A stretch of DNA of 48,691 bases from Nitrospiraceae bacterium. GTDB taxonomy: Bacteria > Nitrospirota > Thermodesulfovibrionia > UBA6902. The notes beneath the pieces were generated by a model that was not told the origin of the DNA, searched no databases, and worked only from the letters and a program-made list of their open reading frames with translations. The stretch spans positions 1 to 48,691 of the forward strand of contig QZKO01000078.1 of the NCBI GenBank assembly GCA_003599505.1, in the 5' to 3' direction. Position numbers and translations under genes: made by a program. Positions 18,847-24,415 of this stretch are shown here, piece after piece. Position 1 is the first letter of the stretch; each line of letters starts with the position of its first letter.

Positions 18847-20823
18847 ATGCAAGGTTCTTTTGACAGGAAGACTACGATAAAGAGCGATAGCCGGAAAATT
18901 TTTCTTGTCGGTAATCCCAATGTAGGGAAAAGCGCCATTTTCGGGCTGCTGACCGGGAAATATGTAACGGTCTCGAACTACCCGGGGACGACCGTTGAAG
19001 TGACAAGGGGCGAGACCGCTATCCACAGGGAAAAGTTCCTTGTTGTGGATACGCCGGGAGTCAACAGCCTGGTCCCCATGAGTGAGGACGAGAAGGTCAC
19101 AAGGGACATCCTTCTTGAAGAAAAACCTGAAGCCGTCATCCAGGTCATAGATACGAAAAACATAAAGAGGTCGCTTTTCCTCACGCTGCAACTGGCTGAA
19201 ATGGGAGTGCCTCTTGTTCTGGACCTTAATATGAAGGATGAGGCGTCGGACAGGGGGATTGAGATTGACGACGGCAGGCTCGGCGACATCTTCGGGACCG
19301 GGGTCGTCTCAACGATAGCCGTCCAGAAGAAAGGCTTATCCACCCTGAAAAAGGCGGCCTCTCATCCCATGGTCCCGCATTTCAGTTTCCCTTATGATTC
19401 CAACATTGAAGAGTTCATTGCAGACATAGAGCCCCTCCTGCCTGCTTCGAATATATCAAAACGCTCTGTCGCGCTGATGATACTTTCCGGGGACAAGACG
19501 TTAAAAGACTGGCTGCTAAGGAACGTGTCGGCGGAAAAGATAAATACTATGGAAGCTCTCAGGGACAGGACAGCGGAAAAATATCCGATGCAGTTGAGCT
19601 ATATCATAAGCCAGCAGAGGCTCAGGGCCGTTGAAGGCGTTGTCGCGGGAATCCTGACAAAAACAGAGAGTGAAAGGAAGGGCATAACCGGATTCCTGGG
19701 TGAGATAACGACTCATCCCGTATGGGGCATCCCGTTCCTTGTCTTTGTCATTTATGCCCTGTATGAATTTGTGGGGGTGTTCGGGGCCGGGGTGCTTGTG
19801 GATTTTTTCGAGGAAGTGATATTCGGTGAATATCTTAACCCCTGGGCTGAAAAAATCGTGACATCCTTTATACCCGTACAGATAATCCAGGAGCTGCTCA
19901 TCGGCCCCTACGGAATTATTACGATGGCTGTCACCTATGCCATCGCCATCATCCTGCCGATTACGGCAACTTTTTTTATCGCCTTCTCTATCATGGAGGA
20001 TTCCGGATACCTGCCGCGTCTTGCCGCGATGCTGAACAGGATTTTTCAGACCATGGGACTGAACGGCAAGGCGGTGCTGCCCATGGTCCTCGGTCTCGGG
20101 TGCGATACCATGGCGACGTTGACGACAAGAATACTCGATACCAGGAAAGAAAGAATAATAGTCACGCTCCTCCTCGCCCTCGGCGTGCCCTGTTCGGCGC
20201 AGATAGGGGTCATACTGGGGATGTTCGGAAAACAGCCGTTCGGGGCCATGCTTATCTGGGTCTTCATGCTGACCATAGTTATATTGTTTGTCGGTTTTAT
20301 AGCCTCGAAGATTATACCGGGGCAGAGGACGGATTTCATACTCGAGCTGCCCCCGATAAGGGTCCCGCAGTTGTCGAACGTCCTCATAAAAACACTGAGC
20401 CGCATAGAATGGTACCTTAAAGAGGCGGTCCCCCTCTTCATTCTCGGCACCCTGATATTATTTGCCGCGGACAAACTGAAAATACTCCCCTTTATACGCG
20501 ACGTGGGGTCGCCCGTGGTGGTCAGCATCCTCGGGCTGCCCCCTGAGACGACGGAATCGTTTATCATGGGCTTTCTGAGGCGCGATTACGGAGCCGCGGG
20601 CCTCTTCGCCCTTCAGGAAAAAGGGCTCCTCAATACTGAACAGGTAGTGGTAAGCCTGGTCACCATAACCCTCTTTATACCCTGTATCGCCAATTTATTT
20701 ATGATGATAAAGGAGAGGGGCATGAAGACGGCCCTGGCGATTGCAGCCTTTGTATTTCCTTTCTCGGTCCTCGTCGGCGGGGCGCTCCACAGGCTGTTGA
20801 TATGGCTGGAGATCTTCAGTTAA
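18847..20823 (+). CDS. feoB: Ferrous iron transporter FeoB
   Basis: This 658-residue GTP-dependent Fe(II) permease has an N-terminal G domain with G1 GNPNVGKS (22-29), switch I NYPGTTVEV, G3 DTPGV and G4 NMKD. A helical spacer follows, then the membrane domain with two Gate motifs (PITATFFIAFSIMEDSGYLPRLA.. and VLGLGCDTMATLTTR..GVPCSAQIGVILGMFG). It is shorter than the 773-aa E. coli protein. No feoA or feoC is adjacent. GAGGAAGATA precedes the ATG, and an AT-rich inverted repeat lies upstream. The vanZ-like gene follows after 8 bp. Confidence 0.95.
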   Translation: MQGSFDRKTTIKSDSRKIFLVGNPNVGKSAIFGLLTGKYVTVSNYPGTTVEVTRGETAIHREKFLVVDTPGVNSLVPMSEDEKVTRDILLEEKPEAVIQVIDTKNIKRSLFLTLQLAEMGVPLVLDLNMKDEASDRGIEIDDGRLGDIFGTGVVSTIAVQKKGLSTLKKAASHPMVPHFSFPYDSNIEEFIADIEPLLPASNISKRSVALMILSGDKTLKDWLLRNVSAEKINTMEALRDRTAEKYPMQLSYIISQQRLRAVEGVVAGILTKTESERKGITGFLGEITTHPVWGIPFLVFVIYALYEFVGVFGAGVLVDFFEEVIFGEYLNPWAEKIVTSFIPVQIIQELLIGPYGIITMAVTYAIAIILPITATFFIAFSIMEDSGYLPRLAAMLNRIFQTMGLNGKAVLPMVLGLGCDTMATLTTRILDTRKERIIVTLLLALGVPCSAQIGVILGMFGKQPFGAMLIWVFMLTIVILFVGFIASKIIPGQRTDFILELPPIRVPQLSNVLIKTLSRIEWYLKEAVPLFILGTLILFAADKLKILPFIRDVGSPVVVSILGLPPETTESFIMGFLRRDYGAAGLFALQEKGLLNTEQVVVSLVTITLFIPCIANLFMMIKERGMKTALAIAAFVFPFSVLVGGALHRLLIWLEIFS

Positions 20824-22841: not shown

Positions 22842-22869
22842 TTGTAATCAGTTTTTTTTGTGATATACT
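22842..22869 (+). promoter_or_regulatory. Candidate sigma-70 promoter of the dsrC-like gene
   Basis: TTGTAA (22842-22847) and TATACT (22864-22869) are separated by 16 nt in an AT-rich stretch. A leader of about 65 nt follows, then AAAGGAGAAGG before the ATG at 22943. Confidence 0.5.
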
Positions 22870-22942
22870 TTTTTCATAAAGCAGAATGCGGAAATGCAGC
22901 ATAAGACCGAAGGGTCTGCCGCTTAAAGAAAGGAGAAGGGCT

Positions 22943-23287
22943 ATGCCGATTATTGAATATGCCGGGACAAAAGTTAACCTGGACGACGAAGGCTATCTTG
23001 TGGATTTTGATTCATGGAATGAAAATACCGCGCTCGCGCTGGCCGGGGATGAAGGGATGGGCGCCCTTACGGAAGCGCAGATGGGGATAATTAAATTCAT
23101 CAGAGAGTATTACAGGGAATATAATTTTTTCCCGATCCTGAACGCTGTCTGCAAGAATGTCCATCAGCCCAGGAACTGCGTTCAGGAAGAATTTATGAGC
23201 CCCCTCAAGGCGTGGAGGATCGCGGGGCTTCCGAAACCTGACGAGCTGATAGTCAACCTTCTGGAATTCGGGGAGTCCCCGGGATGA
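22943..23287 (+). CDS. DsrC/TusE-family protein lacking both conserved cysteines
   Basis: This 114-residue protein shows the DsrC fold signature: MPIIEYAGTKVNLDDEGYLVDFDSWNENTALALA, LTEAQ..IIKFIREYYREY, and AWRIAGLPKP. In DsrC the C-terminus is xCK(I/M)AGLPKPTGC(V). Here the two redox positions are W91 and L102, and 12 extra residues follow. Two other cysteines (C70, C79) lie earlier. It therefore cannot form the DsrC trisulfide in the known way and fits the cysteine-free RspA-like class of DsrC homologues. ATG 22943 is supported by AAAGGAGAAGG. No dsrAB is present. Confidence 0.88.
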   Translation: MPIIEYAGTKVNLDDEGYLVDFDSWNENTALALAGDEGMGALTEAQMGIIKFIREYYREYNFFPILNAVCKNVHQPRNCVQEEFMSPLKAWRIAGLPKPDELIVNLLEFGESPG

Positions 23288-23394
23288 AATAAACACAGAG
23301 ACACAGAGGCACGGAGAAAAACAAAAAGAGTAACGACTTATGAGTCAAGAGTTATGCATAAAGGAGAACATGACACACTGAAAGGGAGGCTGGG

Positions 23395-23973
23395 ATGGCA
23401 TACACTGCGAAGGACTATTCAAAACTCATCGGCATGGAAGGCTTCAGCGAGACGCTGCTGAAGAACCATTTTACACTCTATCAGGGATATGTGACGAATA
23501 CTAACAAGGCGCTTGACGCGCTGGACCGGATGCTGAAAGACGGAAAGACCGGAGACCCTGAATATGCCGAGATGAAGAGGAGGCTGGGCTGGGAATTTAA
23601 CGGCATGAGGCTGCATGAATATTATTTTGAGAACCTGGGGGGGAAAGGCGGGCCCGGCAAAGGCGGGAAACTCGTAAAGCAGGTTGAGGGAAGCTTCGGG
23701 AGTTATGAAGCATGGGAAAAGGATTTCAGGGCCACAGGCGCGATGCGGGGCATAGGATGGACGGCGCTGTACCAGGACGCCGCCGGCGGGAGATTGATCA
23801 ATTTCTGGATCAATGAACACGATGTCTCTCACCCCGCGGGCTGCAATCTGATACTCATTATGGATGTATTTGAGCATGCCTTTATGCCTGATTACGGGTT
23901 GAAAAGGGCCGACTATATCGAGGCGTTTTTTAAAAATATTGACTGGAAGGCGGGGGAGTCAAGACTCAGGTAA
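23395..23973 (+). CDS. sodB: Fe/Mn superoxide dismutase
   Basis: This 192-residue cytoplasmic enzyme dismutates superoxide. The metal ligands are in place: H25 (NHFTLYQGYVTNTN), H74 (MRLHEYYF), D157 and H161 (MDVFEHAF). The active-site region GRLINFWINEHDVSH differs from the usual N..W..H segments but keeps the aromatic cage. Fe versus Mn preference cannot be decided. No signal peptide is seen. The gene forms a small cluster with the dsrC-like gene, a 59-aa ORF and convergent rubredoxin, consistent with oxidative-stress protection in an anaerobe. Confidence 0.93.
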   Translation: MAYTAKDYSKLIGMEGFSETLLKNHFTLYQGYVTNTNKALDALDRMLKDGKTGDPEYAEMKRRLGWEFNGMRLHEYYFENLGGKGGPGKGGKLVKQVEGSFGSYEAWEKDFRATGAMRGIGWTALYQDAAGGRLINFWINEHDVSHPAGCNLILIMDVFEHAFMPDYGLKRADYIEAFFKNIDWKAGESRLR

Positions 23974-24194: not shown

Positions 24195-24353
24195 TTAAAC
24201 CTTTTCAAACTGGTCCTTAGGCGCGCCGCAGACCGGACAGAGCCATTCATCAGGCACTTCTTCAAAAGGGGTCCCGGGCGGGACATTGCCGTCAGGGTCT
24301 CCGTTTTCGGGCTCATAAACATAACCGCAAACAGTGCATTTCCATTTTTCCAT
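24195..24353 (-). CDS. Rubredoxin
   Basis: This 52-residue one-iron electron carrier reads [18 protein letters not shown], then [24 protein letters not shown]. The four Cys ligands (CTVCG and CPVCGA) and the aromatic core are intact. ATG 24353 has GGAGGAATAC upstream, while the longer frame would start inside an AT-rich repeat. It commonly donates electrons to rubrerythrin, superoxide reductase or other oxygen-detoxifying enzymes. Proximity to sodB suggests a similar role, but the partner is not in the window. Confidence 0.96.
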
Positions 24354-24375
24354 GTATTCCTCCCGAAATAAATTC

Positions 24376-24415
24376 CTTAATTGTTCATTTTTCATTAATA
24401 ATTGATAATTGATTT
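24376..24415. repeat. 'taatgag/ttcatta' family repeat
   Basis: The phrase CTTAATTGTTCATTTTTCATTAATAATTGATAATTG sits between rubredoxin and the sugar transferase stop. Related words occur at 37766-37872 and at 45071-45110. Confidence 0.55.

Follow-up and report, generated by a model that had tools for sequence, protein, structure and literature searches.

A gene in the genome of a Nitrospiraceae bacterium encodes a protein that, judged by alignment and phylogeny, belongs to a branch of its own within the DsrC family. Members of this branch have lost the chemistry of the C-terminal arm, and two other cysteines, C70 and C79 (spaced CX8C), are fixed in a helix-turn-helix segment. In bacteria with the Dsr pathway this CX8C protein is usually accompanied by a small CX5C partner, and its gene is often a neighbour either of oxygen-defence genes or of those for the electron-transfer complex of DsrC. 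We tentatively favor the explanation that it is a DsrC-fold thiol/disulfide protein, with a presumed redox chemistry of its own, associated with the electron-transfer system of the Dsr pathway and used together with oxygen-defence genes.

DsrC (PF04358, TIGR03342) is the trisulfide carrier of dissimilatory sulfite reduction and a hub of dissimilatory sulfur metabolism. Its relative TusE is a sulfur relay protein for tRNA thiolation, and RspA proteins are members of the family without C-terminal cysteines that have been proposed to be regulatory. Many genomes carry additional DsrC-like proteins of unclear role. A fixed thiol pair, a conserved and undescribed partner, and ties to both dsrMKJOP and SOD/rubrerythrin would make one of them a connection between sulfite/sulfate reduction and oxygen tolerance that can be put to the test. 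A match to the DsrC family that lacks the C-terminal cysteines is no ground for counting a protein as a sulfur carrier.

The gene and its product

The window, i.e., the whole stretch of 48,691 nucleotides that was analysed, contains the following features around the gene:

22842..22869, + strand: putative promoter-like site by consensus match only (TTGTAA-16-TATACT, TG before the -10)
22931..22935, + strand: AGGAG as ribosome-binding site, 7 nt upstream of the ATG of the CX8C gene, from the sequence
22943..23287, + strand: gene of the CX8C DsrC-family protein, 114 aa plus stop (MPIIEY...FGESPG), from the translation
23150..23152, + strand: codon of C70, Cys in 93/96 subfamily members
23177..23179, + strand: codon of C79, Cys in 91/96 subfamily members and 0/40 canonical sequences
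23213..23215, + strand: codon of W91, where DsrC has its first C-terminal Cys, Trp in 89/96 subfamily members and 0/40 canonical sequences
23246..23284, + strand: L102 (codon 23246-23248), where DsrC has its penultimate Cys, and 12-residue C-terminal extension
23288..23394, + strand: gap of 107 bp between the same-strand CX8C and SOD genes, no terminator-like site found
23395..23973, + strand: 192-aa member of the Fe/Mn superoxide dismutase (SOD) family (PF02777, 81.5 bits), conserved as a neighbour in Nitrospirota
24195-24395, - strand: rubredoxin, within the 1-kb surroundings of the CX8C gene

The protein exceeds the cut-offs of both models of the DsrC superfamily, which places it there: it reaches 70.4 bits for PF04358 (24.9 required) and 67.1 bits for TIGR03342 (53.5 required). 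An AF2 model built from 95 sequences (pLDDT 85.5) has the DsrC fold, with DsrC 3or2_C as best Foldseek match (E 8e-9, TM 0.76). Eight DsrC-family structures head the Foldseek ranking; the LexA winged-helix domains that come next have E values above 0.1. In the model, C70 lies within predicted helix 66-72, at its end, and C79 starts predicted helix 79-84. Two kilobases upstream, on the same strand (18847-20823), is a 658-aa GTPase/transporter ORF that by eye is FeoB-like (ferrous iron uptake).

A separate branch of the DsrC family

The initial homologue search used one genome per species and gave ten relatives from Nitrospirota, a MAG titled Gaiellales, and Desulfobacula. An alignment of eleven sequences (A1) was then searched on genomes of Nitrospirota (296) and of the phyla to which Desulfobacula (297) and Gaiellales (198) belong. 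The A1 scores were bimodal, with the CX8C subfamily above 88 bits and canonical DsrC at 86 bits or less. CX8C genes were carried by 66/296, 16/297 and 6/198 of these genomes, respectively, and about 90 homologues were found across Nitrospirota, Desulfobacterota and Actinobacteriota. All counts given here are based on sampled public genomes; many of these are MAGs, in which a gene may be absent through incompleteness, and the associations ignore shared ancestry.

It was suggested in the initial annotation that both C-terminal cysteines are replaced (Trp91, Leu102), that the chain extends 12 residues further, and that C70 and C79 form a CX8C pair. The translation and the alignment to canonical DsrC agree with this description. 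The C-terminal Cys pair that the trisulfide chemistry of DsrC requires is missing from this protein, in line with the initial annotation. Both cysteines of the CX8C pair proved to be conserved: among 96 distinct members from the fetched loci, 93 have C70, 91 have C79 and 89 have W91. In 40 canonical sequences of the same alignment, Cys occurs at position 70 in 14 and at 79 in none, and Trp at 91 in none. Column 102 holds Cys in 39 of the 40 canonical sequences and in none of the subfamily. The AGLPKP motif at the base of the arm is retained by the subfamily, with A94 and G95 in 95/95 aligned members, L96 in 92 and P97 in 93. A sequencing error, chance or a pseudogene can be ruled out, given that the same pattern recurs in an orthologue from a different genome (L003, 75% identity) and in nearly all of about 90 homologues. 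The conservation of C70, C79 and W91 across these homologues in three phyla likewise rules out a degenerate one-off.

The phylogeny places the protein outside both canonical DsrC and TusE. In a tree of 136 rows, made by a quick method from few alignment columns, an SH-aLRT of 98 supports the split between the CX8C set with three Cys-less relatives on one side and canonical DsrC with E. coli TusE on the other, whereas the CX8C set by itself has an SH-aLRT of 58 only and needs one change. The tusE locus of E. coli K-12 (L199) served as yardstick.

With DsrC, the protein shares fold, length, the core residues W25, A30 and P64, and the arm base. It differs in W91 and L102, which stand in place of the two redox cysteines of the canonical arm, and in the C-terminal extension, the new CX8C pair and its separate branch. 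TusE is of the same fold family, but it keeps the penultimate Cys (E. coli TusE ends in ...PKPVKCI), where the window protein has L102 and 12 more residues, and the tree groups it with canonical DsrC apart from the CX8C group. The NCBIfam TusE equivalog model gives the window protein 44.2 bits against a cut-off of 191. Cysteine positions, tree and equivalog score together rule out that it is TusE or canonical DsrC. It resembles RspA in lacking C-terminal cysteines; a search of open papers for the definition of RspA or for DsrC paralogues in oxygen stress found nothing usable.

Connection to the Dsr pathway

The initial annotation had proposed a link with oxidative stress rather than sulfite reduction. 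The genomes that carry the gene do not support the second half of this proposal. A dsrA above the family cut-off is present in 81/88 CX8C genomes (60/66 Nitrospirota and 21/22 others), and in 84/88 if partial and sub-cut-off matches are included, three Nitrospirota genomes with split or sub-cut-off matches (G047, G119, G261) being counted as present. The CX8C gene is nearly confined to dsrA-bearing genomes. Cysteine rules for DsrC and TusE have been published (PMC3397948), and the CX8C branch violates the first of them though it co-occurs with dsrA.

At four loci the CX8C gene comes after dsrP, the last gene of dsrMKJOP, at distances of 71, 97 and 93 bp in three Desulfobacterota (L160, L161 and L164) and 18 bp in one Nitrospirota (L085). 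This adjacency is limited to 4/92 loci, three of them from one phylum. DsrP and DsrK of L085 and L160 exceed the NCBIfam equivalog cut-offs, and the dsr genes of L161 and L164 were assigned by BLAST identity to those of genome G157 (64-65% for dsrP). In the same three Desulfobacterota, a second DsrM/DsrK-like pair comes right after the CX8C gene (6512-8991 in L160); in L160 its ORFs encode 294 aa and 532 aa, the latter DsrK-like (346 bits, cut-off 400).

The window genome also carries a canonical DsrC with both cysteines (contig C85, 710-1045). No dsrA match was found in this genome, which is 95% complete, and the 11 other sampled genomes of its GTDB family all have dsrA. The order on contig C85 (a 110-aa gene, dsrC, an RsbRD-like gene) is that of the relative G157, in which dsrMKJOP comes next; contig C85 ends two genes after dsrC, where dsrM would follow. 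Upstream of the 110-aa gene lie dsrAB in G157 and other genes in C85. The dsrAB of the window genome may be unbinned or absent.

These ties to the Dsr pathway could also be those of a docking decoy or brake, which would fill the site of DsrC on DsrAB or DsrMKJOP by means of the arm base, carry no sulfur and so halt the pathway under oxygen. The retention of AGLPKP despite the loss of both cysteines speaks for it, as do the near confinement to dsrA-bearing genomes and the position after dsrP in four of them. By itself, however, a decoy explains neither the fixation of C70 and C79 nor the CX5C partner, and we consider it unlikely, if worth keeping in mind.

Oxygen-defence genes in the neighbourhood

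The part of the initial proposal that concerned oxidative stress stands with respect to SOD and falls with respect to rubredoxin. At Nitrospirota CX8C loci (5 kb, BLAST-based labels), SOD was found at 31/69, SOD or rubrerythrin at 38/69, and rubredoxin at 2/69. Because it is near so few loci, rubredoxin is not a conserved link and was dropped as a functional partner. SOD lies within 1 kb at 27/92 CX8C loci vs. 0/40 canonical DsrC loci, and within 3 kb of 29/92 CX8C members, on the same strand in 29/29. Among dsr-positive genomes, SOD is present in 61/66 with the CX8C gene vs. 41/77 without it. Outside Nitrospirota, SOD is within 5 kb at 0/23 loci, and SOD or rubrerythrin at 1/23. The SOD link is therefore real, but limited to Nitrospirota.

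The SOD of the window is itself divergent. Its PF00081 N-domain misses the cut-off (20.9 vs. 27 bits), none of the NCBIfam SOD models comes near its own cut-off, and the protein carries the unusual segment WINEHDVSHPAGCN. From its sequence, enzymatic activity of this protein should not be assumed.

KorAB (named by TIGR03710 and TIGR02177) adjoins the CX8C gene in the group with fused partner and in two Desulfobacterota (L162, L163). The latter have the order partner, KorAB, CX8C, followed by rubrerythrin in L162. KorAB and rubrerythrin share gene runs with the CX8C gene in two phyla.

A neighbouring SOD or rubrerythrin gene might be the target of a redox-switched transcriptional regulator, one form of the regulatory role raised in the initial annotation, in which the helix-turn-helix would bind DNA and oxidation of C70 and C79, flanking the turn, would release it. 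The location of the two cysteines at the end of one predicted helix and the start of the next would suit such a switch. The LexA domains ranking next after DsrC (3k2z_B: prob 0.98, rmsd 1.2 A over 45 columns) and a small Cys-less sister branch (L090, L091) with a segment that by eye is even more HTH-like point the same way. On the other hand, the protein is very acidic (computed net charge -9, subfamily mean -4.8), its putative recognition helix reads CVQEEF, the LexA matches have high E values, and canonical DsrC has the same fold. We find a DNA-binding role rather doubtful.

A CX5C protein as conserved partner

A previously undescribed CX5C protein, rather than rubredoxin, is the conserved partner of the CX8C protein. 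It has about 84 aa, adjoins the CX8C gene at many loci, and is fused to the N-terminus of the CX8C protein in a Thermodesulfovibrio-type group. Invariant in 20 aligned members are C60 and C66 (CX5C), K43, A57, G70 and P17. The partner is within 3 kb or fused at 37/92 CX8C loci (fused at 12), and fused or adjacent forms are seen in three phyla; outside Nitrospirota it is within 5 kb of the gene at 11/23 loci (BLAST-based labels). In the 296 Nitrospirota genomes, 66 have CX8C, 78 have the partner and 55 have both (Fisher odds ratio 45, uncorrected for kinship), and 17/22 CX8C genomes of the other two phyla have it as well. Partner genes located away from CX8C have rubrerythrin, nitroreductase and 2-oxoacid:ferredoxin oxidoreductase genes as neighbours. 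The partner is not always needed, because 11/66 Nitrospirota CX8C genomes are without it; a search of the window genome found none, and that genome is among the 11.

Searches of Pfam, NCBIfam and PDB sequences gave no match holding across the 20 partner members; scattered matches at a maximum E of 1 concerned 1-5 members each and were taken for chance. A model of the partner-CX8C fusion (pLDDT 78, pTM 0.45) was not confident on the domain arrangement and was discarded as evidence for domain contact, and its partner half had no confident Foldseek/PDB match.

Two plus two conserved cysteines, together with natural fusions of the two proteins, would be compatible with a metal or Fe-S site shared across their interface by C70/C79 and the partner's C60/C66. 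The Nitrospirota genomes that have CX8C alone and the poor pTM of the fusion model argue against such a four-Cys site, which seems to us improbable.

Possible function

Most of these facts can be accounted for by a redox protein that belongs to the Dsr system and acts together with oxygen defence; a regulator or a docking decoy accounts for some of them. In this redox role, C70 and C79 would cycle between dithiol and disulfide, so that the thiol pair would have been relocated from the C-terminal arm to the helix-turn-helix segment of a sulfur-free DsrC look-alike. Like DsrC, the protein might dock on the machinery of Dsr electron transfer by way of the arm base that it has kept, and it would take no sulfur from sulfite reductase. 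The CX5C partner could swap electrons with it or maintain its reduced state. The pair would serve the oxygen response of sulfite/sulfate reducers, either by passing electrons from DsrMKJOP to peroxide/superoxide defence or by signalling the thiol state. The missing partner in 11/66 genomes, SOD at 0/23 loci outside Nitrospirota and dsrP adjacency at 4/92 loci stand against this redox role.

A more speculative version, to which we give little weight, is a branched thiol chain in which DsrMKJOP, or the second DsrMK-like pair, would reduce the C70-C79 disulfide and electrons would pass through the CX5C protein to oxygen-defence enzymes. If true, the respiratory complex of sulfate reducers would also supply the power for their oxygen defence.

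It is improbable that C70-C79 is only a structural disulfide in a passive relative of unclear role. Archaeoglobus fulgidus DsrC (chain 1sau_A) does carry two cysteines in this segment, C77 and C85, in addition to its C-terminal pair, and C77 and C85 presumably form a disulfide in the crystal structure. The CX8C pair, however, is restricted to the CX8C branch, lies in the reducing environment of the cytosol, and is conserved whether the genome is that of a mesophile or thermophile-like.

Exceptions within the subfamily

The exceptions to the subfamily pattern are three Cys-less HTH-like members (one in L090, two in L091), one C79Y replacement (L067) and one fragment (L089). The Cys-less members (L090, 2623-2955; L091, 5646-6414, two in tandem) have W91, no CX8C and a strongly HTH-like segment. 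In L067 (4759-5103), where C79 is Tyr, the sole partner match of the genome (G038) is an 81-bp fragment, a possible case of joint decay. Three Desulfobacterota members (L171, L173, L175) have CX8C with W91 replaced by Cys or Ala (TTCKIAG, TAKIAG) and are possible intermediates.
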